Shown piece after piece: positions 1-20,131 of a DNA stretch of 41,299 nt (within the stretch, counting starts at the first letter, position 1; the number at the start of each line of letters is the position of its first letter). Source of the stretch: Lachnospiraceae bacterium (GTDB lineage Bacteria > Bacillota > Clostridia > Lachnospirales > Lachnospiraceae); the NCBI GenBank assembly GCA_017548765.1, contig JAFYZH010000037.1, forward strand, positions 1 to 41,299. Direction: 5' to 3'. A program made the position numbers and the translations under genes. Under the pieces are notes generated by a model. That model searched no databases. It saw only the letters and a list, made by a program, of their open reading frames with translations, and was not told where the DNA came from.

Positions 1-301
1 TCTTGAAGGGATTTTGCACAAAACGTCCGCGATATTCGGGAATCTCATAATCTTCCGGCTTTTGGTCCGCGATCACGATCATCCGAAACGTGCGGGGCAG
101 ACATTCGAACAGATCCATGTACATCATGTCCGGAAGTTTGCATCCGCAGATCACGATTCCTTTTTCGAGGTGGTCGGCACCGGATAGCACCATAGAAGCG
201 GAGCGGCATACCATTTCTACGGGATAGCCGCGCATACCGAGATGCGCAGCGATCCTTCTTCCGGTCTCAAGGCCGGAAAATGCCACGATCAGGTTCGCCA
301 T
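1..301 (-). CDS. ANTAR-type antitermination regulator (3' part outside window)
   Basis: The reading frame opens with ATG at 301 and runs off the left edge, giving the first 100 residues. It begins MANLIVAFSGLETGRRIAAH and resembles the receiver-like N-terminal half of the ANTAR regulators that sit beside glnA in Clostridia; the RNA-binding ANTAR half would lie outside the window. Proteins of this class bind paired hairpins in leader RNA and prevent termination. It starts 3 nt after the glnA stop, so it is almost certainly cotranscribed with glnA. Where receivers carry the phosphate-accepting Asp (pattern LLDxKLPDM), this protein reads VICGCKLPDM, so it looks like a pseudo-receiver. Family assignment rests on resemblance and position. 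The alternative is another CheY-like protein. Confidence 0.72.
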   Translation of the reverse strand, partial: MANLIVAFSGLETGRRIAAHLGMRGYPVEMVCRSASMVLSGADHLEKGIVICGCKLPDMMYMDLFECLPRTFRMIVIADQKPEDYEIPEYRGRFVQNPFK

Positions 302-304
302 ATA

Positions 305-1630
305 TTATCCTCTCAAAAAGTATTTATCGATCTCCCATTCAGAAACGGTCTTAATATATTCGGCCCATTCCTCTTTTTTCTGTGTGATATACTTTTCGGA
401 AATATAAGCCCCCAATACTCCCTGGATAAATGCATCCTGCTCGAAGCATTCGATCGCCTCGCCCAGGCTCTGCGGCAGGCCCTCGGGAACTAATTTTCCA
501 TCCTGCTTATACTTCGACGCGTCAGCCCCGCGTTCGATACCGTCCAGGCCGGCCGCCAGGATCACGGCGATAGCCAGGTACGGATTGCACGTTGCATCCG
601 GGTTCTTCAACTCGATACGCGCATGCTCCGGGCGCTCGAAATACGGGATACGGATCGCCGTACGTTTGCCGAGATTTGCGTATGCGACCTGGTTCGGAAC
701 GTAGATATTGCCATCCAGGCGCTTATAGGAATTCACGATGGGGTTGGTGATGAGGCTCATGCCGCGAAGATGATCCAGGACACCCGCGATAAAGCTGTAG
801 GCTTCCTTAGACAGATGGTTCTCATCCTCTTCCCCATAGAAAATGTTCTCACCATAACGGTCGAGCGAGAAATTGATGTGCATACCGGAACCGACCATGT
901 TGTTGAGCGGCTTCGGCATGAAGGTTGCGACCAGGCCATGCTTTTTCGCCACATTCTTCACAGCCAGTTTAAAGGTCACGATGGCGTCAGCTGCGCCGAG
1001 CGCGTTCAGGTATTTGAAATCGATCTCGTGCTGGCCGCGTCCCTTTTCGTGGTACGAAGCCTCGATATCGAAGTTCATGTCTTCCAGGGTAAATACCATG
1101 TCACGACGAACATTTTCCCCCTGATCGGAGTGACCCGGATCGAGGTAACCTTCCTCGGGCGCCGACTCCAGCGTCGGGCGGCCCATCTCGTCGGTCTGGA
1201 ACATGAAAAACTCACACGCCGGGCCTACATTTGCCAGGATGCCCTTTTGCTGCGCCTTCTCCAGCACACGCTTCAGGACGTGGCGCGGATCGTACTCGAT
1301 CGCCACACGGTCCGTCGTGTAAACGTTGCAGATCAGGCGGGCTACCTTACCGGCCTGCGGACGCCACGGGAAGATCTCAAAAGTATCGAGATCCGGGTAC
1401 AGGAACATCTCGTTGACGGTCTCGCCGTCGGAAGAGTCGAAACCGTTGATGTAAGTGCCGTCAAAGATAAAACGGTTGTCCAGGGCTTTCGCCAGGTTGT
1501 TCTTAGTGATAGCGACATTCTTCATGGCGCCGAAGATATCCGTGAACTGCAGGCGGATGAACTCGACGTTCTCCTCTTCTACGATTCGTTCGATGTCTTC
1601 TCTGGTGTAGCGTTTTTCGTTTCCGATCAT
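305..1630 (-). CDS. glnA: Glutamine synthetase type I
   Basis: Makes glutamine from glutamate, ammonia and ATP in the cytosol. The 441-aa length fits the GSI-alpha class. The N-terminal beta-grasp region includes RLQFTDIFGAMKNV. The metal and ATP site is seen in GSGMHINFSL and in KNPDATCNPYLAIAV near residue 345. The start is supported by GGAGG about 7 nt upstream of ATG 1630. It follows carB by 111 nt and is followed after 3 nt by the ANTAR regulator. It is the second glutamine synthetase in the window, alongside the unrelated-length type III enzyme at 15758-17860. GSI-alpha enzymes lack the adenylylation loop and are usually controlled by feedback inhibition; that is family knowledge. Confidence 0.97.
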   Translation of the reverse strand: MIGNEKRYTREDIERIVEEENVEFIRLQFTDIFGAMKNVAITKNNLAKALDNRFIFDGTYINGFDSSDGETVNEMFLYPDLDTFEIFPWRPQAGKVARLICNVYTTDRVAIEYDPRHVLKRVLEKAQQKGILANVGPACEFFMFQTDEMGRPTLESAPEEGYLDPGHSDQGENVRRDMVFTLEDMNFDIEASYHEKGRGQHEIDFKYLNALGAADAIVTFKLAVKNVAKKHGLVATFMPKPLNNMVGSGMHINFSLDRYGENIFYGEEDENHLSKEAYSFIAGVLDHLRGMSLITNPIVNSYKRLDGNIYVPNQVAYANLGKRTAIRIPYFERPEHARIELKNPDATCNPYLAIAVILAAGLDGIERGADASKYKQDGKLVPEGLPQSLGEAIECFEQDAFIQGVLGAYISEKYITQKKEEWAEYIKTVSEWEIDKYFLRG

Positions 1631-9036: not shown

Positions 9037-12000
9037 TCAACCCTCCTTTGAAATCTCTTCAAATGCTTCCAGGACTGCAGCGTCGCGGCTGATGCCCTTC
9101 GCCTCGTACTTCGCGATGGTCTTCAGCATGCGGCTGTAACCGATCGGCACGATCTTCTTGAAATACGGCAGGCTCTCGTCATACTTCTCCAGGATGCCGG
9201 CTGCTTTCTTCGAGCCGGTCGCTGCCGCGTAATCCTTCAGGATCTCCAGCAGGCGTTCCTTATCTTCTTTTTCGGTGATCTCACCGAAAGTTACCATTTC
9301 TTTATTGATCCGGCGATACAAGTCGTGATGCTCGTCCAGAACAAACGCGATACCGCCGCTCATGCCGGCTGCCAGGTTCTTACCGGTCGGTCCGAGCAGG
9401 ACTGCCACGCCGCCGGTCATGTACTCCAGACCATGGTCGCCGCAACCTTCGGCTACCGCCGTCGCGCCCGAGTTACGCACGCAGAAACGCTCGCCTGCGA
9501 TACCGCTCGCATAAAGCGTACCGGAGGTCGCGCCGTACAACGCAACGTTACCGATGATGATGTTTTCATCGGCCGCATAGCCCGCGTTCTTCGGCGGGAC
9601 GATAATGAGCTTACCGCCGGACAATCCCTTACCGACGCCGTCGTTTGCATCGCCCGTCAGGCGGATCGTAAGACCCTTCGGAAGGAATGCGCCGAACGAC
9701 TGTCCGCCGCCGCCGACTGCTTCCACGCGGAAGGTGTCGTCCTTCACGTCGCTGCCCAGTTTCAGCGTGATCTCCGAACCGAGGATGGTACCAAAGCTAC
9801 GGTCTGTACTGGAAACCTGAACTGTTACAGGCTTCTTCTCGCTCTTCTTTCCGCTTAAAACATCCGCGAAATACGGCAGCAACTGCTTCATATCCGGTGT
9901 CTCGGAAAGTTTGAAATCATAAATGTCTTTCGGATCGAAATGACGCTTCTCGAACTCTGCATAGGTCGGATCGATCACCGCCGCCAGATCTACCATACCC
10001 GCGCGCTTCGTGATCGGGTGCCTCCGCACATGCAGGATGTCGCTTCTGCCGACCATCTCTTCCACGGTCTTGAAACCGAGCTGTGCCATGATCTCACGCA
10101 GTTCCTCAGCGATGAACAGCATGAAGTTCATAACGTGCTCCGGCTTACCTGCGAAACGCTTACGCAGCTCTTTGTTCTGCGTCGCGATGCCGACCGGGCA
10201 GGTGTCCTTCGAGCAGACACGCATCATCATACAACCCATGCATACCAGCGGAGCCGTTGCGAAACCGAACTCCTCGGCGCCCAACAGGGCTGCGATCGCA
10301 ACGTCACGGCCGCTCATCAGCTTACCATCGGTCTCGATGGTGACACGGGAACGGAGTCCGCTCTCGATCAGGCTGCGATGCGCCTCGGCCAGACCCAGCT
10401 CCCAAGGCAGACCTGCATGATGCACGCTGCTGGGCGGAGCTGCTCCGGTACCGCCGTCATAGCCCGAGATCAGGATGACCTGGGCACCGGCTTTTGCAAC
10501 ACCGGATGCGATCGTGCCGACGCCCGCTTCGGAAACCAGCTTAACGTTGATCCTAGCATCTCGGTTGGCATTCTTCAGATCGTAGATCAGCTGAGCCAGA
10601 TCCTCGATCGAGTAGATATCATGGTGCGGCGGCGGGGAGATCAGTGAGATACCCGGTGTGGAGAAACGTGTTGCCGCAACCCACGGGTAGACCTTCTTAC
10701 CCGGAAGATGTCCGCCCTCGCCGGGCTTCGCGCCCTGCGCCATCTTGATCTGTATTTCTTTTGCGCTCCGCAGATATGCGCTCGTTACGCCGAAACGTCC
10801 CGAAGCGACCTGCTTGATCGCACTGTTCTTCTCTGTGCCGTAGCGTTCGCTCGCCTCGCCGCCCTCACCGGTATTCGACTTACCGCCGAGACGGTTCATG
10901 GCGATCGCCAGGGTCTCATGTGCCTCCTGGGACAGCGAACCATAGCTCATGGCTCCCGTCTTAAACCTGCGGACAATGCTTTCCGCCGGCTCTACTTCGC
11001 TGATATCGATCGGTGCGCGATCCGATACCATATCCAGCAGGCCACGCAAGGTGTGCGGACGGTCCTCCGCATCGACCAGCGCCGTATATTCCTTAAACTT
11101 CGCATAATCGCCGGTACGTACCGCACGCTGCAGGTTAACGATCGTGGTCGGATCGTACAAATGATCCTCCGCGCCCTCACCGCTGCGCAGCGAGTGGAAA
11201 CCGGTCGAATCCAGTCTGGTGTCTGTACCCAGCTCCAACGGATCGAATGCATGATTGTGGCGGAACAAAACGCCCTCTTCGATCTCGCGGATGCCGATTC
11301 CGCCGACACGGCTCACCGTACCGGTGAAATAGTGATCCATCACTTCCTTCGACAGGCCGATCGCCTCGAAGATACGTGCGGACTGGTAGGACTGGATCGT
11401 GGAGATACCCATCTTCGCCGCGATCTTTACGATACCATTCAGGATCGCCGAGTTGTAATCCTCGATCGCCGTGTGGTAATCCTTATCCAGGATGCCCAGG
11501 TCGATCATCTCGGCAATGCACTCATGCGCGAGGTACGGGTGGATGGCCCGTGCGCCGAAGCCCAGCAGGACTGCCATCTGATGCACGTCACGCGGTTCGG
11601 CGGATTCGAGGATGATCGAAACTGCGGTGCGCTTCTTCGTGAGCACCAGGTGCTGCTCCACGCTCGAAACCGCCAGCAGCGACGGGATCGCCATATGGTT
11701 CTCATCCACGCCGCGGTCGGACAGGATGATGATATTCTTTCCGGAAGCAACCTCTTTATCCACGCGGATATTGAGCTGCTCCACCGCCTTCTTCAGCGAT
11801 GTATTCTTATAAAACAGCAAGGATACCGTCGTGCTCTTCAGGCTCTCCGTATCCAGGCTCTTGATCTTCATTACGTCAACGCCGGTCAGGATCGGGTGAT
11901 TGATCTCGAGCATGCGGCAGTTCTCGCTCTTCTCGGTCAGCAGGTCGCCATCGGAACCGATGTATACGGTCGTGTCGGTGACGATCTTCTCACGCAGCGA

Positions 12001-13557
12001 GTCGATCGGCGGGTTGGTGACCTGCGCGAACAGCTGCTTGAAATAGTTGAACAGCGACTGATGTCTGCGACTCAAAACCGCCAGCGGAACATCGTGTCCC
12101 ATGGAGACCGTCGGCTCGATACCGTTCTTCGCCATGGGCAGGATGAGGTCCTTCACATCCTCATAGGTGTAGCCGAACGCCTTATACAGGCGGTCACGCA
12201 TTTCCTGCGTGTGCGTCGGGATCTTCTTATTCGGGATCTTCAGATCTGCGAGATGCTGCAGATTCTGGTCCAGCCATTCGCCGTAAGGCTCCTTATTCGC
12301 ATAGATCGATTTACACTCCTCGTCGGAGATGATGCGCTTGCTCTTCGTATCTACGAGCAGCATGCGGCCGGGTTCCAGACGGGACTTTTTCACGATATGT
12401 GCGGGGTCAATGTCCAGCACGCCGACCTCGGATGCGAGGATCAGGCGGTGGTCATCCGTGATATAGTAGCGGGAAGGACGCAGGCCGTTGCGGTCCAGCG
12501 TCGCGCCGAGCAGCTCGCCATCCGAAAACAGCATGGCTGCCGGGCCGTCCCACGGCTCCATCATGGTCGCGTAGTAATGATAGAAATCCTTCTTCGTACG
12601 CTCCATGTACTCATTATGCTTCCAAGGCTCCGGTACCGTGATCATCATGGCCAGCGGCAGCGGCATCCCATTCATATATAAGAACTCGATCGTGTTGTCG
12701 AACATCGCAGAGTCCGAGCCCGACAGGCTGACAACAGGATACACCTTATCCAGATCCTCGGCAAAGATCCGGCTCTTCATGGTCTCCTCACGGGCGAGCA
12801 TACGGTCAATGTTACCGCGGATCGTGTTGATCTCGCCGTTGTGCGCGATCATGCGGTACGGATGCGCACGGTCCCACGAAGGGTTCGTATTCGTCGAGAA
12901 ACGAGAATGCACGATCGCGATGGCGGTCTTGTAATCGGTGCTACGCAGATCATCGTAGAATGCACGCAACTGCTTGACCAAAAACATACCCTTATAAACG
13001 ATCGTACGGGACGAAAGCGAGCAAACATAAGCATCATCGGCACTCTGCTCATATTCGCGGCGAACTACGTACAGACGGCGGTCGAAATCCAGGCCGCGCG
13101 CCACATGCTCCGGGCGTCCCAGGAAGCACTGATAGATCGCAGGCATCGAGTCCAGAGCCACCTGGCCCAGGATCTCCGGATGCGTCGGAACCTTACGCCA
13201 GCCCAGGAACTTAAGGCCTTCCTTCGCCGCGATCATCTGCAACATCCGCATCGAGAAAGTGCGCTTCATCTCATCGGCCGGCAAAAAGATCATACCGATG
13301 CCGTAGTCTCCGGCACCGCCTACAGAGATCCCCTGCTCTGCCGCTGCTTTTGAAAAGAAATCATGGCTCACCTGCAACAGGATGCCCACGCCGTCTCCGA
13401 CGCTTCCGCTGGCGTCCTTGCCCGCGCGGTGCTCGAGTTTTTCCACGATGGACAATGCGTCGGACATCGTCTCATAGCTTGCCTCGCCGTCGATATTTGC
13501 CACGGCGCCGATACCGCAGGCATCATGTTCGATCGGATGATATTCGTACTTTTCCAT
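9037..13557 (-). CDS. gltB: Glutamate synthase (NADPH) large subunit
   Basis: Converts glutamine and 2-oxoglutarate to two glutamates (the GOGAT half of GS/GOGAT). 1506 aa, full length. Class II amidotransferase nucleophile Cys14 lies in HDACGIGA after a 13-residue propeptide. The central domain is followed by the FMN/2-oxoglutarate barrel with GYDGGTGAAP; the 3Fe-4S cysteines are in CMGCMMMRVCSKDTCPVG starting at Cys1106; a C-terminal glycine-rich beta-helix domain (GDHGLEYMTGG) ends the protein. An AAGGAG site precedes ATG 13557. The gene has its own promoter (13666-13694) and a structured leader, described separately. Confidence 0.97.
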   Translation of the reverse strand: MEKYEYHPIEHDACGIGAVANIDGEASYETMSDALSIVEKLEHRAGKDASGSVGDGVGILLQVSHDFFSKAAAEQGISVGGAGDYGIGMIFLPADEMKRTFSMRMLQMIAAKEGLKFLGWRKVPTHPEILGQVALDSMPAIYQCFLGRPEHVARGLDFDRRLYVVRREYEQSADDAYVCSLSSRTIVYKGMFLVKQLRAFYDDLRSTDYKTAIAIVHSRFSTNTNPSWDRAHPYRMIAHNGEINTIRGNIDRMLAREETMKSRIFAEDLDKVYPVVSLSGSDSAMFDNTIEFLYMNGMPLPLAMMITVPEPWKHNEYMERTKKDFYHYYATMMEPWDGPAAMLFSDGELLGATLDRNGLRPSRYYITDDHRLILASEVGVLDIDPAHIVKKSRLEPGRMLLVDTKSKRIISDEECKSIYANKEPYGEWLDQNLQHLADLKIPNKKIPTHTQEMRDRLYKAFGYTYEDVKDLILPMAKNGIEPTVSMGHDVPLAVLSRRHQSLFNYFKQLFAQVTNPPIDSLREKIVTDTTVYIGSDGDLLTEKSENCRMLEINHPILTGVDVMKIKSLDTESLKSTTVSLLFYKNTSLKKAVEQLNIRVDKEVASGKNIIILSDRGVDENHMAIPSLLAVSSVEQHLVLTKKRTAVSIILESAEPRDVHQMAVLLGFGARAIHPYLAHECIAEMIDLGILDKDYHTAIEDYNSAILNGIVKIAAKMGISTIQSYQSARIFEAIGLSKEVMDHYFTGTVSRVGGIGIREIEEGVLFRHNHAFDPLELGTDTRLDSTGFHSLRSGEGAEDHLYDPTTIVNLQRAVRTGDYAKFKEYTALVDAEDRPHTLRGLLDMVSDRAPIDISEVEPAESIVRRFKTGAMSYGSLSQEAHETLAIAMNRLGGKSNTGEGGEASERYGTEKNSAIKQVASGRFGVTSAYLRSAKEIQIKMAQGAKPGEGGHLPGKKVYPWVAATRFSTPGISLISPPPHHDIYSIEDLAQLIYDLKNANRDARINVKLVSEAGVGTIASGVAKAGAQVILISGYDGGTGAAPPSSVHHAGLPWELGLAEAHRSLIESGLRSRVTIETDGKLMSGRDVAIAALLGAEEFGFATAPLVCMGCMMMRVCSKDTCPVGIATQNKELRKRFAGKPEHVMNFMLFIAEELREIMAQLGFKTVEEMVGRSDILHVRRHPITKRAGMVDLAAVIDPTYAEFEKRHFDPKDIYDFKLSETPDMKQLLPYFADVLSGKKSEKKPVTVQVSSTDRSFGTILGSEITLKLGSDVKDDTFRVEAVGGGGQSFGAFLPKGLTIRLTGDANDGVGKGLSGGKLIIVPPKNAGYAADENIIIGNVALYGATSGTLYASGIAGERFCVRNSGATAVAEGCGDHGLEYMTGGVAVLLGPTGKNLAAGMSGGIAFVLDEHHDLYRRINKEMVTFGEITEKEDKERLLEILKDYAAATGSKKAAGILEKYDESLPYFKKIVPIGYSRMLKTIAKYEAKGISRDAAVLEAFEEISKEG

Positions 13558-13607
13558 CTTAACTGCTCCTTTGTCGATACTACGGAAAATGCTTTCCCGG
13601 AATCACG

Positions 13608-13654
13608 AAAGGCACTTTGAAGGGCTGTTACACCCATCAAAGCGCCTTTGCTTT
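13608..13654 (-). promoter_or_regulatory. gltB leader: hexaloop hairpin overlapping a long hairpin
   Basis: On the coding strand, AAAGC-AAAGGC-GCTTT (13654-13639) is a 5-bp stem with a six-base loop having A at position 1 and G at position 4. It overlaps the 5' arm of a second hairpin, AAAGGCGCTTTGA (13649-13637) with TCAAAGTGCCTTT (13620-13608), 13 bp with one G-U pair. The two cannot form together. The downstream U-run is poor, so the long hairpin may be a weak terminator or a block on elongation or translation. The core GCAAAGGCGC is identical in the asnB leader. Proposed ANTAR target by inference; I did not find a second, upstream hexaloop hairpin. Confidence 0.5.
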
Positions 13655-13665
13655 TCTAAGAAAGC

Positions 13666-13694
13666 ATTTTAGCACAGCACACTATACGTGTCAA
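13666..13694 (-). promoter_or_regulatory. Promoter of gltB (sigma-A type)
   Basis: TTGACA at 13694-13689, a 17-nt spacer and TAAAAT at 13671-13666. Predicted start of transcription is near 13659, about 100 nt before gltB. The same -35, spacing and -10 occur before asnB (19571-19599). Confidence 0.8.
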
Positions 13695-13775
13695 TGATTT
13701 TTTTAAATTTTTCTCGTCTTTTCATGCCGCGCCGCAACATGCTTTCTTGTCAGTAATAGGTTGTATAACCACAAC

Positions 13776-15548
13776 TTATTCTACATCCTGTAATGCTGCG
13801 AAGTCTTCCTCGCCGGTACGTACCTTAACGACCTGCTCTACGCCGTATACGAAGATCTTACCATCACCGATATGACCGGTGTAAAGTGCCTTCTTCGAAG
13901 CCTCGATGACATCCGCCACCGGGATCTTGCTGACTACGACTTCGACCTTAACCTTCGGAAGCAGGGTAGCATCCATTTCAATACCACGGTACTTCTCGCC
14001 GGCACCCTTCTGGATACCGCAGCCCATGACCTGTGTGACCGTCATACCGGTAACACCGAGATCGTTGAGGGCCTTCTTGAGCTGCTCGTAACGAGCCAGC
14101 TTTGCGATGATAACGACTTTGTGCATCGTTGCAGTGCTCATAACGGGCGCTGCATTTACCTTTACGGCTGCATCGACCATAGCCTGCGATGCCTCGCCGT
14201 ACTCGCTGACACCGAGGTCCGTGTTCTCATTGACCGACATCTCCATGCCGGTAACATCCATGATGGAGAAACCTGAGTAAGCGGATGCAAGACCATGCTC
14301 AGTGATATCAAGACCTGTAAGTTCCTCTTCTTCGGTAACACGAAGACCGAAGATCTTCTTAATGATGGCAAATGTGATCGTGATGGTGATCGCTGTCCAA
14401 GCTGCCGTTGCCAGCATACCCAGAGTCTGGATGCCGAGGAGTTTGAAACCGCCGCCGTAGAACAGTCCGAGCATCGGGTTGCCTGAAGAGTCGGCCAATG
14501 CATAGGTGGGTGCTGTGTCAGTTGCGAACAGACCTACAGCCAGGGTACCGAAGATACCGTTGAACATGTGAACGCCTACAGCGCCGACAGGGTCGTCAAC
14601 GTGAAGTTTGTGATCCAGAAGCCAGATACCAAAGATAACTACGAGACCGGAGATCGCACCGATGATGGAAGCGCCGGCTGCGTCAACTACGTCACAAGGA
14701 GCGGTGATCGCTACCAGACCTGCGAGAGAAGCGTTGAGACACATGGATACATCGGGCTTGCCATAATGGATCCAGGTGAAAATCATACATACTACGGTTG
14801 CGACCGCGGGAGCGATCGTGGTTGTTACGAAGATAGCGCCCATCTGCTCAACACTGGTTGCAGCAGCGCCGTTGAAACCATACCAGCCGAGCCACAGGAT
14901 GAATACACCCAGGGCGCCGAGCGTGATGTTGTGGCCGGGGAAAGCATTGACCTTAGTAACCTTTCCGGCTTTATCTTTTACGAACTTACCGATACGGGGA
15001 CCGACCATGATCGCACCGATCAGGGCGCAGATACCGCCGACCATGTGAATGCAGTTGGAACCTGCGAAATCGTGGAAACCGAGCTTAGCGAGCCAGCCGC
15101 CGCCCCATGTCCAGTGAGCTTCGATCGGGTAGATCACTGCGGAAATGATCGCCGAGTAAACACAGTAAGAAAGGAAACGGGTACGCTCTGCCATAGCACC
15201 GGAAACGATCGTTGCGGTCGTCGCACAGAATACCAGGTTGAATACGAAGTTGCTCCAGTCGAAGTGAGCATAATCCGTGAAGATATCAAAGTTCGGAAGA
15301 CCTAAGAAACCTGCGAGCGCGTCTTCGCCCAGGAACAGACCGAAACCGATCAGAATGAACGTCACGGTACCGATACAGAAGTCCATCAGGTTCTTCATCA
15401 AAATGTTACCTGCGTTCTTCGCACGGGCGAAACCGGTCTCGACCATGGCGAAACCAGCCTGCATCCAGAACACGAGTGCCGCGCCGATCAGGAACCAGAC
15501 GCCGAACACTTTTTCGTCGATCAAACTCATAATGCTACCAGTATCCAT
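13776..15548 (-). CDS. amt: Ammonium channel fused to PII signalling domain (Amt-GlnK)
   Basis: Carries ammonium across the membrane and joins the channel to its own regulator. Residues ~1-435 are Amt: many membrane helices, FWMQAGFAMVETGF near the N-terminus, and the paired pore histidines in FAGSNCIHMVGG and DDPVGAVGVHMFNG. After a ~40-residue linker, residues ~475-590 are a PII domain: VVIIAKLARYEQLKKAL, a T-loop IQKGAGEKYRGIEMD with the usual Tyr (about residue 520), and YTGHIGDGKIFVYGVE. ATG 15548 is chosen because GAGGAGG lies 5 nt upstream; earlier in-frame codons would extend into the leader hairpins. In most bacteria GlnK is a separate protein that plugs AmtB; here it is tethered. 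Confidence 0.95.
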   Translation of the reverse strand: MDTGSIMSLIDEKVFGVWFLIGAALVFWMQAGFAMVETGFARAKNAGNILMKNLMDFCIGTVTFILIGFGLFLGEDALAGFLGLPNFDIFTDYAHFDWSNFVFNLVFCATTATIVSGAMAERTRFLSYCVYSAIISAVIYPIEAHWTWGGGWLAKLGFHDFAGSNCIHMVGGICALIGAIMVGPRIGKFVKDKAGKVTKVNAFPGHNITLGALGVFILWLGWYGFNGAAATSVEQMGAIFVTTTIAPAVATVVCMIFTWIHYGKPDVSMCLNASLAGLVAITAPCDVVDAAGASIIGAISGLVVIFGIWLLDHKLHVDDPVGAVGVHMFNGIFGTLAVGLFATDTAPTYALADSSGNPMLGLFYGGGFKLLGIQTLGMLATAAWTAITITITFAIIKKIFGLRVTEEEELTGLDITEHGLASAYSGFSIMDVTGMEMSVNENTDLGVSEYGEASQAMVDAAVKVNAAPVMSTATMHKVVIIAKLARYEQLKKALNDLGVTGMTVTQVMGCGIQKGAGEKYRGIEMDATLLPKVKVEVVVSKIPVADVIEASKKALYTGHIGDGKIFVYGVEQVVKVRTGEEDFAALQDVE

Positions 15549-15611
15549 AATAACCTCCTCGTTGCGTTCCTCCCAAAGTAAGCACCGCAACCTTTGTTTT
15601 TTCGATTTACC

Positions 15612-15629
15612 GTCCTGCTTTGGCAGGAC
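15612..15629 (-). other. Hairpin between amt attenuator and start
   Basis: GTCCTGC-CAAA-GCAGGAC on the coding strand, a 7-bp stem just after the terminator U-run and 64 nt before the amt start. It has no U-run of its own. Role unknown; it may protect the processed 5' end or shape the leader. Confidence 0.4.
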
Positions 15630-15639
15630 TCGCAAGATC

Positions 15640-15688
15640 AAAAAACGAAGGTGCTCCGGTTCCTTTCGTGCCCCGTTGCACCTTCGTT
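15640..15688 (-). terminator. Attenuator in amt leader with overlapping hexaloop hairpin
   Basis: AACGAAGGTGC (15688-15678) pairs perfectly with GCACCTTCGTT (15654-15644), followed by six Ts, a good intrinsic terminator placed before the gene rather than after it. Inside it, GTGC-AACGGG-GCAC (15681-15668) can form a 4-bp hairpin with a six-base loop bearing A at 1 and G at 4, using the terminator 5' arm. This is the ANTAR antiterminator arrangement. A separate strong hairpin (15721-15703, GGTACCGC/GCGGTGCC) lies just upstream but its loop does not match the ANTAR pattern. Terminator: sequence-supported; its control by ANTAR: inference. Confidence 0.72.
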
Positions 15689-15757
15689 CATGAAATTGCT
15701 TCGGCACCGCCGGGCGGTACCTTGTATATTGAGAGATTGGTTAGAAAAACGCCTAAT

Positions 15758-17860
15758 TTATACCGGCTGATACCGTACACTGTACAGGATCTCAGCGTAG
15801 GTCGGGTACGGCCACAGATCGCTCGGGATCAGCGGCTCGATCTCGTCGACTACCTCACGCAGCGCTGCCATGTCGGCCAGGATGACTTCCTGATGATACT
15901 TCGCCAAAGCGACAACATCGGTCAGTTCCTTCTCCTTAGCGACATCCTCTTCCAGCTTACCCAGCTTGCACTGCAGGCTGCATGCCAGACGGGAAATGTG
16001 CTTCAGGAGAGTCTCCTCACATGTGCAGGCATCCTTCGAAAGAGCCTGGCTCTTCTTGATGATCACATCTGCAAGACGTCCCTCGTAGTTTGCTACGGCT
16101 CCGGTGATGTTGTTCTTCACCATGGAGATCAGCGTAAGCGCCTCGATGTTGATGGTCTTGTAGTAGTTCTCATGCAGGATCTCGTAACGAGCCTTGATCT
16201 CGGACTCGGAGTAAACGCCCTGGTCCTCGAAGATCTTCATGTTCTTCGGCTCGATGAACGATCCGAGTGCATCGACGGTCGTCTTCAGGTTCAGCAGGCC
16301 ACGCTTCTCAGCTTCCTTCACCCACTCCTCGGAATAACCGTTGCCGTTGAAGATGATGCGCTTATGCGCCTTGATCTCGTCACGGATGAGTTTGTTGAGG
16401 GTCATGTCGAAGTCGTCTGCCTTCTCCAGGATCTCTGCATATTCGCTGAGTGTCTGTGCAACGATCGTGTTCAGAACGATGTTCAGACCGGAGATCGATG
16501 CGGAAGAACCGAGCGAACGGAATTCAAATTTATTACCGGTAAATGCAACCGGTGAAGTACGGTTACGGTCGGTCGTATCGCAAGGGATATGAGGAAGGAC
16601 CGTAGCGCCGATGCTCATCAGCTTCTTCTCGGGATCATGGTAGTCCGTGCCATCTTCGATCGCCTTCAGGACTGCGTCGAGCTCATCACCGATGAATACG
16701 CTCATGATCGCGGGCGGTGCCTCGTTTGCGCCGAGACGGTGGTCATTGGCCGCGGAAGCAACCGACATACGGAGCAGACCCTGATATTCATCGACTGCCT
16801 TGATGACTGCCATCAGGAAGAGCAGGAACTGCGCGTTCTGGGACGGTGTATCGCCCGGCTCCAACAGGTTCTTACCTGTGTCGGTCGACATGGACCAGTT
16901 GTTGTGCTTACCGGAACCGTTCACGCCTGCGAACGGCTTCTCATGCAGCAGGCATACCATGTGGTGCTTACCTGCAACGATCTTCATCAGCTCCATCGTC
17001 AACTGGTTGTGATCCGTTGCGATGTTGGTCGTCGAGAAGATCGGGGCCAATTCATGCTGGGCCGGAGCTACTTCGTTATGCTCCGTCTTCGACAGGATGC
17101 CGAGCTTCCACAGTTCCTCATCCAAGTCTTTCATATAAGCCTTTACTCTGGGCTTGATCATACCGAAGTAGTGATCTTCCATTTCCTGGCCCTTCGGCGG
17201 CTTCGCGCCGAACAATGTACGTCCTGTATAGATCAGGTCGGGACGACGCTTATAAACGTCGCAGTCGATCAGGAAGTACTCCTGCTCCGGGCCGACCGTG
17301 GTCATAACACGCTTGGAAGCGGTATCTCCGAACAACCGCAGGATACGTACTGCCTGCTTATCCAGCGCCTGCATGGAACGCAGGAGCGGTGTCTTCTTAT
17401 CCAGTGCCTCGCCGCTGTAAGAACAGAACGCGGTCGGGATGCACAGGGTGTCGTCCTTGATAAATGCATAGCTGGTAGGATCCCAGGCTGTATAACCACG
17501 TGCTTCAAATGTCGCACGCAGACCGCCGGACGGGAAGGAGGATGCATCGGGCTCGCCCTTAACGAGTTCCTTACCGGAGAACTCCATCAAAACACGTCCG
17601 TTTCCTTCCGGAGCGATAAAACCGTCATGCTTCTCTGCGGTGATGCCGGTCATCGGCTGGAACCAATGTGTGAAGTGCGTTGCACCCTTTTCGATGGCCC
17701 AATTCTTCATGGCCTCCGCAACTACGTTTGCGATGTCCAGCTGCAAATGCACGCCGTCATCGATGGTCTTGTGAAGTACACGGTACACATCCTTGGGAAG
17801 ACGTTCTTTCATCACATCGTCGTTAAATACCATACTTCCGAAAATCTTGGTAACATCCAT
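15758..17860 (-). CDS. glnN: Glutamine synthetase type III
   Basis: Makes glutamine from glutamate and ammonia. The 700-aa size and motifs mark the GSIII class found in Clostridia, Bacteroides and cyanobacteria. Visible landmarks: [14 protein letters not shown] near residue 65, [10 protein letters not shown] near residue 205, [13 protein letters not shown], the nucleotide/metal site [13 protein letters not shown], and [19 protein letters not shown] 17860 is chosen because AAGGAGG lies 7 nt upstream; an earlier codon at 17887 would overlap asnB. It begins 20 nt after the asnB stop, so asnB and glnN form one unit. Having GSIII near the start and GSI at the end of one gene run is unusual. Confidence 0.95.
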
Positions 17861-17880
17861 TTTGATATCCTCCTTTTTTA

Positions 17881-19464
17881 TTAACAACCGCTCTGGCCGT
17901 AGTTCTTAAGAACACGGGCCGACGGATCGTTGACATCACAGTTCTCCCAGTTTTTGTTCGGCATCCAGAAATCCTTGATCATCTCTGCCTGTCCGGGATA
18001 GAACTCCTCAAAGATCTCGCGATACAAAAGCGACTCTTTGGTGAACGGCGGCACGTAATCGTAAGCCGCGCATTTCTCTTTGAAAACTTCATCGCTGTAG
18101 ACTTCCTCGGCGTAAGCCTTTAAGTAGTCTACCATCGAATGTCCGACTGCATCGGAAAATGCTGCTTTCTCGCGCATCAGAATGTTCTGCGGCAGGTAAC
18201 CCAGGCCCTCGAACGCATGGCGCAACAGGTATTTTCCTTTGTTGTAGACATTCATCTTTTTCTCCGGCGGGATCCGCATTACGTAAGATACGAAATCCAG
18301 ATCGCCGAACGGAACGCGGGCCTCCATCGAGTGGACCGAAATGCAACGGTCGGCGCGAAGCACGTCGTACATGTACAACTCGCGAAGTCTCTTCTCTGCT
18401 TCCAACTGGAACTCTTCGGCGTTCGGAGCGAAGTCCGTGTACTTGTAACCGAAGATCTCATCGGAGATCTCGCCGGTCAGGAGCACCCGAATATCCGTGG
18501 TCTCGCGAATGCCTTTGCAGATCAGGTACATTCCCATGCTCGCCCGGATCGTCGTGATATCGAAGGTACCCAGGGCCGCGATGACCTCGCGGAGCGCTCC
18601 CAGCACGATGTCCTTATTGATGATGATCTCGTGATGGTTGCTGCCGATGAAGTCGGCCACCTCTTTCGCGTACTTCAGGTCGATCGCATCTTCGTTCATT
18701 CCGATGGCAAATGTCTCGATCGGATGTCCTAAGATCTTCGTCGCGATCGCGCATACCAGGGAACTGTCCAAACCTCCCGAAAGCAGGAAACCGATCTTTG
18801 CATCTGCATCCAGACGTTTTTCCACGCCTGCGATCAGTTTCTCGCGAATGTTCTTACAAACGGTCTCGAGGTCATCGTCCACATAGGGCTGACGCGCTGC
18901 CAGATCGTTGTAGCAGATGAACTCGCCTTTGTAATAGTAGTGGCCCGGCGGGAACGGCGTGATCTTATCGGTCAGGCCGACCAGGTTCTTCGCTTCACTG
19001 GCAAAACAGATGTCGCCGCTCTCGTCATATCCGTAGAACAAAGGCCGGATGCCGATCGGGTCGCGAGCCGCGATCAGTTCTCCCTCCTTAGCGTCGTACA
19101 GGATCATGGCGTATTCCGCATCCAGCATGGAAAACATTTTCCGTCCGTACAACTCGTACATCGGGAGGATGATCTCGCAGTCGCTGTCGCTCTGGAATGT
19201 GTAGCCGGCTTCCATCAGTTTTGCCTTCTGGTTTCGGAAGCCGTACAGCTCGCCGTTACAAACGACGATATTGCCGTTTCGTTCAAACGGCTGCATACCG
19301 GCCTCGGTCAGTCCCATGATGGACAATCTCTGAAAACCGAGGAAACCATCGCCCGCCTGCACGACCCGCATTCCATCCGGTCCGCGGGAAGTTGTGACCT
19401 TCATGTGGTTCTCAAATGCGGCGCGGGAGATATTTCTCTTTTTCATTCCCATTACAACGCACAT
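17881..19464 (-). CDS. asnB: Asparagine synthase (glutamine-hydrolysing)
   Basis: Transfers the amide of glutamine to aspartate with ATP. Class II amidotransferase: the protein begins MC, so Cys2 becomes the N-terminal nucleophile once Met is removed, which fixes the start at ATG 19464. RGPDGM and GFQRLSIMG follow in the glutaminase domain; the ATP-pyrophosphatase loop is [12 protein letters not shown] near residue 230, and [11 protein letters not shown] follows. 527 aa, close to the E. coli AsnB-type length. AGAGG lies about 9 nt before the start. The gene has its own promoter and an attenuator-like leader and is followed by glnN after 20 nt. Confidence 0.95.
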
Positions 19465-19505
19465 CGTTTTTTGCCTCTTTCTTCATGTGTTCTATCTTTG
19501 AATGG

Positions 19506-19549
19506 AAAAACAAAAAGCGCCACGGATATCCTCCGTGGCGCCTTTGCCA
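19506..19549 (-). terminator. Attenuator in asnB leader with overlapping hexaloop hairpin
   Basis: GCGCCACGGA (19541-19532) pairs with TCCGTGGCGC (19526-19517), a perfect 10-bp stem with a 5-nt loop, followed by TTTTTGTTTTT. It lies between the asnB promoter and gene, so it should cut transcription short unless opened. TGGC-AAAGGC-GCCA (19549-19536) is an alternative hairpin whose loop has A at 1 and G at 4 and which uses the terminator 5' arm. The core GCAAAGGCGC is identical to that in the gltB leader. Predicted ANTAR antitermination target by analogy with the EutV class. Confidence 0.72.
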
Positions 19550-19570
19550 TACATCATTCAAATTGAGCAC

Positions 19571-19599
19571 ATTTTAATACAGGTTCTCAACTTTGTCAA
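19571..19599 (-). promoter_or_regulatory. Promoter of asnB-glnN (sigma-A type)
   Basis: TTGACA at 19599-19594, 17-nt spacer, TAAAAT at 19576-19571. Predicted transcript start near 19564, about 15 nt before the hexaloop hairpin and 100 nt before the gene. Confidence 0.82.
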
Positions 19600-19618
19600 C
19601 AGTTTTTTTCAAATTTTT

Positions 19619-20131
19619 TTAATTTTTTTCCGAAGTCTCTTCCGGCGCGGGGTTCGGTCTGCGCGCAGGCGTAAGCATGAGCGGAAGTTTGTAGCTGGCG
19701 GTATAACCGTTCGCCTTCAGATCCTCGAGGATCTCTCCGTTTAAGCGGTTCGCCAGGAGAAGCAGTGATTTCAGGTCCTCCGGATCGATCGTCTTCAAGC
19801 CGGCTACGATATGCTCGCGGGCAATGCCTGCTACCTTCTTACGAAGGACCGCATGATCCGTGTCATCGGGATTATCCTGCTTGAAATGAATGGCGCCGCT
19901 GACCCTCATCACCAGGTCTTTGCCGTTCTCATCGGTCCCGTAGACGATCGGTTGCATATTTCTCTCGTCGAGCATCGCCATGATCACACCTTCAGGCAGT
20001 CTGCTCTTCCTCTGCGCCGCTGCCGGCTGTGGATCCTGCGGAGCCGCCTGCGGCTGCACACCTGCGGTTTTGCGGTTCGCATTTTCCGAAGCCTGTTTCA
20101 TTGCATCTTTTAATTTGTCAAAAAATCCCAT
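19619..20131 (-). CDS. Hypothetical protein, soluble, Ala/Gln/Pro-rich linker
   Basis: 170 aa, not recognised. It begins MGFFDKLKDAMKQASENANR, an amphipathic start, followed by a Gln/Ala/Pro-rich stretch (residues ~25-40). A compact middle (PEGVIMAMLDERNMQPIVYG) and a helical region (DLKSLLLLANRLNGEILEDL) follow, then a Pro-rich tail. No signal peptide or membrane segment. GGAGGAAAGG lies just before ATG 20131, and an extended -10 promoter is at 20165-20173. It sits between the ABC permease and asnB; no functional link to either is visible. Small proteins starting with MGFFDKLK often act as adaptor or envelope-stress proteins, but I do not assign a function. Confidence 0.75.
   Translation of the reverse strand: MGFFDKLKDAMKQASENANRKTAGVQPQAAPQDPQPAAAQRKSRLPEGVIMAMLDERNMQPIVYGTDENGKDLVMRVSGAIHFKQDNPDDTDHAVLRKKVAGIAREHIVAGLKTIDPEDLKSLLLLANRLNGEILEDLKANGYTASYKLPLMLTPARRPNPAPEETSEKN

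Follow-up and report, generated by a model that had tools for sequence, protein, structure and literature searches.

Nitrogen-gene leaders of a Lachnospiraceae bacterium contain single hexaloop hairpins that overlap larger hairpins and are probably read by an ANTAR protein

The current analysis concerns contig JAFYZH010000037.1 (assembly GCA_017548765.1) of a Lachnospiraceae bacterium, whose entire length of 41,299 nucleotides (nt) is referred to as the window, and in particular the leaders located upstream of three of its nitrogen genes, asnB, amt, and gltB. The nitrogen genes are encoded on the minus strand in the order asnB, type III glnA, amt, gltB, gltD, a purF-like gene, carA, carB, a type I glutamine synthetase gene (GSI), and a final gene that is cut by the contig end; gltD, purF, carA, and carB were identified by eye. 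Each of the three leaders contains one hairpin with a six-base loop bearing A at its first and G at its fourth position (an A1/G4 hexaloop), and this hairpin overlaps a larger hairpin. We consider it probable that these leaders are transcription attenuators read via the single hexaloop by an ANTAR protein, the presumed product of the cut gene. The genome of the window is G000 and its congeners are G001-G005. The relevant features are as follows:

19571-19599, minus strand: asnB promoter, TTGACA (19599-19594), 17-nt spacer, TAAAAT (19576-19571), scoring 11.5 of 12.5
19536-19549, minus strand: asnB hexaloop hairpin, TGGC[AAAGGC]GCCA, a candidate ANTAR site and antiterminator that covaries in relatives
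19506-19545, minus strand: asnB intrinsic terminator, its 5' arm consisting of the hexaloop and the 3' strand of the hexaloop stem; U-tract TTTTTGTTTTT
15668-15681, minus strand: amt hexaloop hairpin, GTGC[AACGGG]GCAC, shared by L072-L076, the amt leaders of G000-G004
15640-15689, minus strand: amt terminator, its main 5' arm containing the 5' strand of the hexaloop stem and its top containing the loop
13666-13694, minus strand: gltB promoter, TTGACA (13694-13689), 17-nt spacer, TAAAAT (13671-13666)
13639-13654, minus strand: gltB hexaloop hairpin, AAAGC[AAAGGC]GCTTT, 11 nt past the -10 box and ~4 nt from the predicted transcription start
13608-13649, minus strand: gltB larger hairpin with a weak U-tract
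17881-19464, minus strand: asnB, asparagine synthetase (glutamine-hydrolysing)
15758-17860, minus strand: glnA, type III glutamine synthetase (GSIII), beginning 20 nt past asnB
13776-15548, minus strand: amt, ammonium transporter with a fused P-II domain
9037-13557, minus strand: gltB, glutamate synthase large subunit, heading the same-strand run gltB-gltD-purF-like-carA-carB-GSI-ANTAR
305-1630, minus strand: GSI, type I glutamine synthetase
2-301, minus strand: presumed ANTAR protein, N-terminal 100 codons (pseudo-receiver part), the gene being cut by the contig end

A first-pass annotation, made from the sequence alone, had described an A1/G4 hexaloop hairpin with a stem of 4-5 base pairs (bp) in each of the three gaps, TTGACA-17-TAAAAT promoters and a shared 10-mer at both asnB and gltB, and clear terminators at asnB and amt, all of which were recovered at the same positions. 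The larger hairpins of asnB and amt finish in U-runs and are clear terminators, and that of gltB ends in CCTTTCGTGA, a weak U-tract with five T in its place in congeners G002 and G004. Counting both strands, the window contains the 10-mer GCAAAGGCGC exactly two times, once at asnB and once at gltB. Folding, which the annotation had suggested as a check, gave z values of -5.7 to -6.7 for all three leaders. When hairpins having a Watson-Crick stem of at least 4 bp and an A1/G4 hexaloop were counted in dinucleotide-shuffled leaders, the chance of encountering at least one was 0.070 for asnB, 0.065 for amt, and 0.087 for gltB, and the joint chance was 4e-4. Rfam yielded no match in the whole window at gathering score and, at E<=1 on positions 13400-19700, a single sub-threshold microRNA match (E 0.4, plus strand, inside asnB); neither a riboswitch nor a T-box was found at the three leaders in those scans. 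The 20-nt gap between asnB and glnA contains no hexaloop.

Additional structures surround the leader hairpins. An 11-bp perfect inverted repeat, AAAATGCTTTC / GAAAGCATTTT (13660-13670 and 13586-13596), brackets the gltB leader hairpin, and its left half overlaps the -10 box. In the asnB fold, the switch is enclosed by a second inverted repeat, made up of TTTGAATG (19555-19562, before the hexaloop) and CATTCAAA (19497-19504, past the terminator). Upstream of the amt hexaloop, a hairpin GGTACCG-CCCGG-CGGTGCC (15703-15721, minus strand) is retained with changes in G002-G004 and absent from G001; it was considered as an upstream partner (P1) of the amt hexaloop and rejected, given its 5-nt loop and its absence from the G001 leader (L076).

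To compare these leaders among relatives, those of asnB, gltB, amt, and type III glnA were gathered from searches of 61 genomes, yielding 101 loci among the matches listed (11 of 11 for asnB and 30 each for gltB, amt, and glnA); L041 and L059 have no upstream DNA, which leaves 99 leaders, with the close relatives G000-G004 being counted several times. Loops were selected by sequence rather than by pairing, as every 8-mer CA..GG.G in leaders of 350 nt. A flanking stem of at least 4 bp accompanies 62 of 87 such 8-mers in the leaders, compared to 0 of 131 in coding DNA taken from these loci, and the flanking pairs are Watson-Crick at frequencies of 0.74, 0.83, and 0.71, versus 0.43, 0.31, and 0.28 expected. 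An antisense control, having 17 occurrences of the 8-mer, paired at 0.35, 0.82, and 0.41 for the same three positions, its high middle value perhaps arising from terminators being near-palindromes. Overall, the hairpin is carried by 59 of the 101 loci (asnB 8/11, gltB 14/30, amt 22/30, and glnA 15/30).

Covariation was scored in an alignment of 30 rows, and as these rows were picked for having a good terminator and a stem no shorter than 4 bp, the percentage paired within it is inflated and 62 of 87 is the unbiased figure. The hexaloop stem scores 0.747 compared to 0.268 in shuffled alignments, with two-sided changes in four of its five pairs, and the terminator scores 0.576 compared to 0.245, with two-sided changes in 8 of 13 pairs; none of 500 shuffles reaches either score and slid registers attain at most 0.18. 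Pairing is kept between the 3' strand of this stem and each of its two partners, so that two alternative structures are maintained at once. A strict terminator overlaps the hairpin in 46 of the 62, and within these 46 the third loop position faces the terminator arm as A-U (29), G-C (3), U-A (2), or C-G (1), the remaining 11 being mismatch or wobble; this position, which is free in ANTAR sites, covaries with the terminator arm. A further test, blind to both loop size and loop sequence, covered 174 leader regions, 124 of them with a promoter, and returned 83 hairpins starting 0-22 nt past the promoter. Six was the commonest loop size (35/83, versus 8/39 in a background stretch), and among the 35 hexaloops A1 is present in 27 and G4 in 26. 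On the strength of this sequence comparison, the leaders are a real RNA switch. The annotation had made its proposal depend in part upon conservation or covariation of the hexaloop stems in relatives, and their pairing is indeed kept through two-sided changes.

The annotation had also placed an ANTAR-type gene at the close of the run, an assignment that depends on the congeners, as in the window itself the domain is not visible: the contig ends 100 codons into the gene at 2-301 (minus strand), before any ANTAR domain, and the 100 amino acids encoded match no Pfam family. In G003, the same gene order runs on to P0006, a protein of 183 amino acids with a match to PF03861 (E 2e-14, 53.5 bits, cut-off 27.3), which by eye differs from the window's 100 amino acids at one position. 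Proteins that are 94-95% identical occupy the same place, adjoining GSI, in G001, G002, and G004, and it is because of congeners G001-G004 that the window gene is called ANTAR. The fifth congener, G005, encodes a more distant ANTAR protein (29% over the last ~81 residues) adjoining a divergent GSI. Across the 61 genomes, an ANTAR search produced a match at E<=0.1 in 48 and above the curated cut-off in 44; Bacillus subtilis 168, run as a control, gave none above the cut-off. No Pfam receiver match was obtained for P0006 or P0001, and by eye the phospho-acceptor Asp is absent (VICGC/VICGSKLPDM, versus VLLDIKMP and VLMDVKMP in L001 and L002). Proteins of the EutV type, which join a receiver (REC) to an ANTAR domain, are recognized by an acceptor Asp and a partner kinase; here the Asp is missing and the neighbour is GSI.

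The relationship between the leaders and ANTAR was examined with R1, a covariance model of the 30 aligned leaders, none of which is a GSI leader. At E<=1e-4, R1 matches 34 of the 44 genomes having ANTAR above the cut-off compared to 0 of 16 without (p 3.6e-8), which is an upper view, as the model was trained on genomes of the same test and the ANTAR-negative genomes are mostly more distant; G000 was left out, its ANTAR gene being cut, and sub-threshold ANTAR matches exist in four of the 16 (G021, G054, G057, and G058). Three R1 matches in ANTAR-negative genomes were inspected: those of G047 and G052 have no hexaloop stem, and that of G042, located before GSIII, has one of 3 bp. Within G000, R1 finds asnB (E 1.2e-8) and gltB (E 3.1e-6) and nothing else below 0.2, thus missing the amt leader. 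Among 51 strong R1 matches in relatives, the A1/G4 hexaloop has a stem of at least 4 bp in 37 and of at least 3 bp in 45. By BLAST, the genes following these matches include GSIII, amt, gltB, purF-like genes, carA, and GSI, and by eye they also include CTP synthase (three times), amino-acid-type ABC transporters, and nifH, in addition to some genes without an evident nitrogen link. In three genomes, R1 matches with hexaloop stems of just 2-3 bp precede genes that by eye encode large ATP-grasp-like proteins (L204, L210, and L213), for which an unrecognized nitrogen function is possible.

An independent set was provided by 80 named ANTAR loci among the matches listed, mostly labelled Lachnospiraceae. 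R1 matches 45 sites in these loci at E<=1, 43 of them on the plus strand, and 34 of the 43 lie 1.3-1.8 kb before ANTAR, that is, in the GSI leader, 31 of them with the hexaloop. The hairpin begins 2-12 nt past the -10 box in 33 of these 34 GSI leaders (promoter score at least 9.5), and by direct scan a hexaloop stem of at least 4 bp is found in 30 of 75 GSI leaders. GSI is the gene immediately upstream of ANTAR in 79 of the 80 loci, the remaining one being cut by a contig end, and it adjoins ANTAR in 27 of 30 loci listed from the 61-genome search, the other three encoding receiver-type proteins; receiver-type L002 and L008 sit by eye beside kinase and eut-like genes. Neither the carB-GSI gap of the window nor a second GSIII copy (G000:C22) contains an A1/G4 hexaloop, and since the former does not, the GSI-ANTAR pair is probably served here by the gltB leader, unlike the arrangement in 34 of the 80 loci. 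Named strains with the pair include Roseburia porci, Lacrimispora celerecrescens, Fusicatenibacter saccharivorans, and Lachnotalea glycerini, the latter two with an R1 match at the GSI leader as well. Together, the covariation, the tracking of ANTAR genes by R1, and the GSI-ANTAR leaders lend support to the ANTAR antitermination regulon that the annotation had proposed. L234 (G049, from another family of the same order) has the order GSI-ANTAR-GSIII, and a separate EutV-like system is encoded elsewhere in that genome. The GSI-leader hexaloops of L242, L266, L285, L287, L293, and L314 read AAGGGT, in which A1-U6 pairing could shrink the loop to AGGG.

A second architecture is apparent in eight amt leaders, those of G000-G004 (L072-L076) and of G012, G005, and G016 (L084-L086). 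In these, the terminator takes the 5' strand of the hexaloop stem and the loop lies outside the main arm, as determined by folding for the window and by eye for the others. By eye, the loops are AAAGGC, AATGGC, or AACGGG and keep A1, A2, G4, and G5, although A1, G4, and G5 were selection criteria too. That the loop is kept even though it lies outside the main terminator arm argues against conservation for the terminator alone. This point bears upon the alternative that survives best, namely, that the leaders are plain promoter-proximal attenuators under some non-ANTAR control, such as another RNA-binding protein, a small molecule, or polymerase pausing, with the loop kept as part of the terminator 5' arm. 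In the main architecture, AAAGGC does pair with GCCTTT on the U-tract side, and this loop would thus be favoured by selection on the terminator alone; in the amt leader of the window, weak pairing of loop bases 3-5 within the top of the terminator is possible. Nevertheless, the loops of the second architecture remain ANNGG, terminator selection does not require a competing, covarying second stem, and the motif occurs along with ANTAR genes and, in 34 of the 80 listed loci, stands at the head of the GSI-ANTAR operon. We therefore regard plain attenuation as unlikely.

Another alternative, which seems more doubtful still, is that these are canonical dual-hexaloop ANTAR leaders in which P1 was overlooked or is degenerate. 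The target models set out in the available text of two studies use two stem-loops (PMC3369931; PMC8164766). Here, a second A1/G4 hexaloop within 40 nt upstream accompanies 0 of 62 hairpins, including the three of the window, with 2.1 being expected from dinucleotide shuffles. L065 has one with a 29-nt linker, just beyond the 40-nt scan, and L221 is the only one of the 51 further R1 matches with an upstream A1/G4 hexaloop, 28 nt off. The 34 GSI leaders include two with an upstream A1/G4 hexaloop, but given the promoter gaps of 2-12 nt, most of the 40 nt scanned in these leaders is promoter DNA. L124 is counted among the 62 even though its hairpin does not overlap a terminator and is the first of a pair, and in L079 and L082 there are two hexaloops with a separate terminator for each. 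A promoter scoring at least 10 of 12.5 is found in 40 of the 62 (4% in mononucleotide shuffles), and 35 of these 40 end 4-21 nt before the hairpin; the 40 nt before the amt sites of G000-G004 contain no good promoter. Transcription starts ~7 nt past a -10 box, so a P1 of at least 12 nt plus a linker would have no room in most of the leaders with a clear promoter. Furthermore, the same loop rule does find a P1-P2 pair, TTACAC[AACGGC]GTGTAA-8 nt-GAGC[AATGAG]GCTC, before a eutP-like gene in G049 (L236, with eut-like genes by eye). In favour of the dual-hexaloop arrangement, the GSIII leaders of G049 and G056, from other families of the same order, have two hairpins, although A1 or G4 is missing from one of the two loops in each case. 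The target definition in the accessible part of PMC3369931 comprises an A1/G4 hexaloop, which is present in all three leaders, and overlap with a terminator, which is present for asnB and amt; with no second hexaloop and little room for one, its two-hairpin form does not describe these leaders, which are best called a single-hexaloop variant. The annotation had suspected as much, and the single hairpin, being common to the leaders of relatives, is no oversight.

The remaining alternatives fare worse. A repressor binding an inverted repeat in the DNA just past the promoter, the hairpin being incidental, would suit the proximity of the sites to the predicted transcription start, as is usual for repressors, but an operator would keep its arms, whereas the arm sequences here change between loci while pairing and hexaloop spacing stay; in addition, the terminator arm covaries too and the G000-G004 amt sites have no good promoter close upstream, which makes this account highly improbable. 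Lastly, chance hairpins on ordinary intergenic terminators, while not rare for any one leader (0.065-0.087), can be dismissed almost entirely in view of the joint value for the window, the stem counts in leaders and coding stretches, and covariation beyond all shuffles.

Preference for ANTAR control through a single hexaloop must nonetheless be weighed against several observations. An ANTAR domain was not found in the assembly of the window. According to the available text of PMC3369931, EutV requires two hexaloops in vivo. Forty of the 99 leaders having upstream DNA contain no such hairpin within 350 nt, and gltB of G000 and G003 has a weak U-tract. The association with ANTAR, besides being an upper view, loosens with the threshold, R1 matching 2 of the 16 ANTAR-negative genomes at 1e-3 and 6 of 16 at 1e-2 (ANTAR-positive genomes, 39 and 39). 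Some R1 matches break the A1/G4 rule, either with a G1 loop (L211, L214, L303, L258, and L271) or with the A4 loop AAAAGC (L289, L257, L262, L311, and L270). Finally, accessible passages of PMC8934654 name eleven EutV residues as RNA contacts, and when these were mapped by alignment (the chain number being presumably the residue number + 2), P0006 keeps four (Lys149, Glu160, Arg168, and Met172), carries Arg in place of Lys143, and is changed at the other six (Arg142 replaced by Glu, Lys147 by Gly, Tyr164 by His, Asn173 by Glu, Arg175 by Gly, and Arg177 by Thr), which lowers our confidence in the ANTAR reading a little. Apart from this balance, the AAAAGC-loop matches recur ~2.7 kb past the ANTAR start in their five loci, including Lacrimispora algidixylanolytica.

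A glutamine synthetase partner for ANTAR was absent from this entry of the first-pass annotation. Compared to chain 4s0r, the window GSI is changed at five of 12 checked residues (E129A, N264V, E327Y, R339K, and R359K) and keeps E131, E212, E220, H269, R321, R344, and E357, in Salmonella numbering; the residues of an active type I glutamine synthetase are thus incomplete. The checked positions are presumably catalytic and metal-ligand residues, the changed set including the E-flap Glu (now Tyr) and a metal ligand. N264 is variable in relatives too. Among G000-G004, the ratio of nonsynonymous to synonymous substitution rates (dN/dS) of GSI is 0.03-0.06, indicating purifying selection, and the window GSI is probably a pseudoenzyme kept for regulation. 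Being without catalytic residues and yet under purifying selection, it may be a sensor. Among the 79 GSI adjoining ANTAR in the listed loci, the E-flap Glu is replaced in 33 (by Asp in 23 and by another residue in 10), and, leaving N264 aside, 31 retain every checked residue. The loss of this Glu from part of the GSI-ANTAR pairs suggests that the pairing outlives catalysis in some lineages. By analogy to the control of GlnR by glutamine synthetase, we infer a role for GSI as the glutamine sensor in control of the ANTAR protein, and the gene linkage of such a sensing pair is seen in 79 of the 80 listed loci.

Based upon these features, a mechanism can be proposed. At asnB and gltB, RNA polymerase would start shortly before the small hairpin. 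If the hairpin is unbound, the same bases would re-pair with the downstream arm and form the intrinsic terminator. Active ANTAR protein, encoded by the gene after GSI, would grip the hexaloop at A1 and G4 and block the terminator, thereby permitting transcription of asnB-glnA(III), amt, and the gltB...GSI-ANTAR run, with the amt leader serving as a second such switch within an asnB-glnA-amt transcript. As the receiver-like domain has no phospho-acceptor Asp, the signal probably comes from the GSI encoded just before: loaded with glutamine, GSI would hold the ANTAR protein inactive, and nitrogen shortage would presumably lead to its release. Comparison of sequences supports well the anatomy of the switch and its place in ANTAR-controlled nitrogen regulation, while ANTAR binding, antitermination rather than termination, the transcription starts, and the operon extents are predictions. 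More broadly, and tentatively, many Lachnospiraceae-type bacteria might control nitrogen assimilation through one-hexaloop ANTAR switches at or near the first transcribed base, the 5' end replacing a recruitment hairpin and the ANTAR protein being kept in check by a glutamine synthetase that has become, in this lineage and some others, a catalytically dead glutamine sensor retained solely for regulation; we would judge this general scheme to be slightly short of an even prospect.

Among known systems, several are similar. In Clostridium saccharobutylicum, a type I glnA is followed by the gene for NitR, an ANTAR-type response regulator, much like the order of genes here; our search of open-access literature did not find this arrangement, and if single-hexaloop targets have already been published for NitR, the single-hexaloop part would be less new. 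Dual-hexaloop ANTAR targets, as presented in the accessible part of Ramesh et al. 2012 (PMC3369931), include E. faecalis eutP, nasF, and amiE as well as nitrogen regulons in Desulfotomaculum and Pelobacter. The current leaders resemble those targets in the A1/G4 hexaloop, the overlap of hairpin and terminator, the nitrogen genes served, and the presence of several operons per genome, but they have one hexaloop and lie close to the predicted 5' end of the RNA. In available passages of Walshe et al. 2022 (PMC8934654), the ANTAR dimer is proposed to contact one hexaloop at a time, and the existence of single-hexaloop sites is put forward as a possibility; in the case of EutV, both hairpins were still required for preventing termination, and single sites were expected where the polymerase imposes no time limit. 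Unlike that expectation, the single sites described here overlap terminators. The same passages leave open why there are two hexaloops if the protein holds one and whether single sites regulate. Apart from their suggestion, our search of open-access literature, in portions of text, found nothing on single-hexaloop nitrogen-gene leaders or GSI-ANTAR pairs, which is weak evidence of absence. Passages of PMC5640608 likewise offered nothing pertinent. The current leaders offer natural single-hexaloop antiterminator candidates by the dozen, and because named strains carry the GSI-ANTAR pair, the single-hexaloop question is directly testable. With respect to the sensor, the closest parallel is found in Bacillus and its relatives, where, according to the available text of PMC9249791, feedback-inhibited glutamine synthetase, encoded in an operon with the GlnR gene, is the nitrogen sensor for GlnR and TnrA. 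GlnR and TnrA bind DNA, whereas the regulator here has an ANTAR domain and presumably binds RNA, and the E-flap Glu that is part of the Bacillus circuit is Tyr in the window GSI. If our proposal is correct, nitrogen control in such Clostridia would include a glutamine synthetase-ANTAR pair, an RNA counterpart of the glutamine synthetase-GlnR system in which decayed synthetases act as dedicated sensors.

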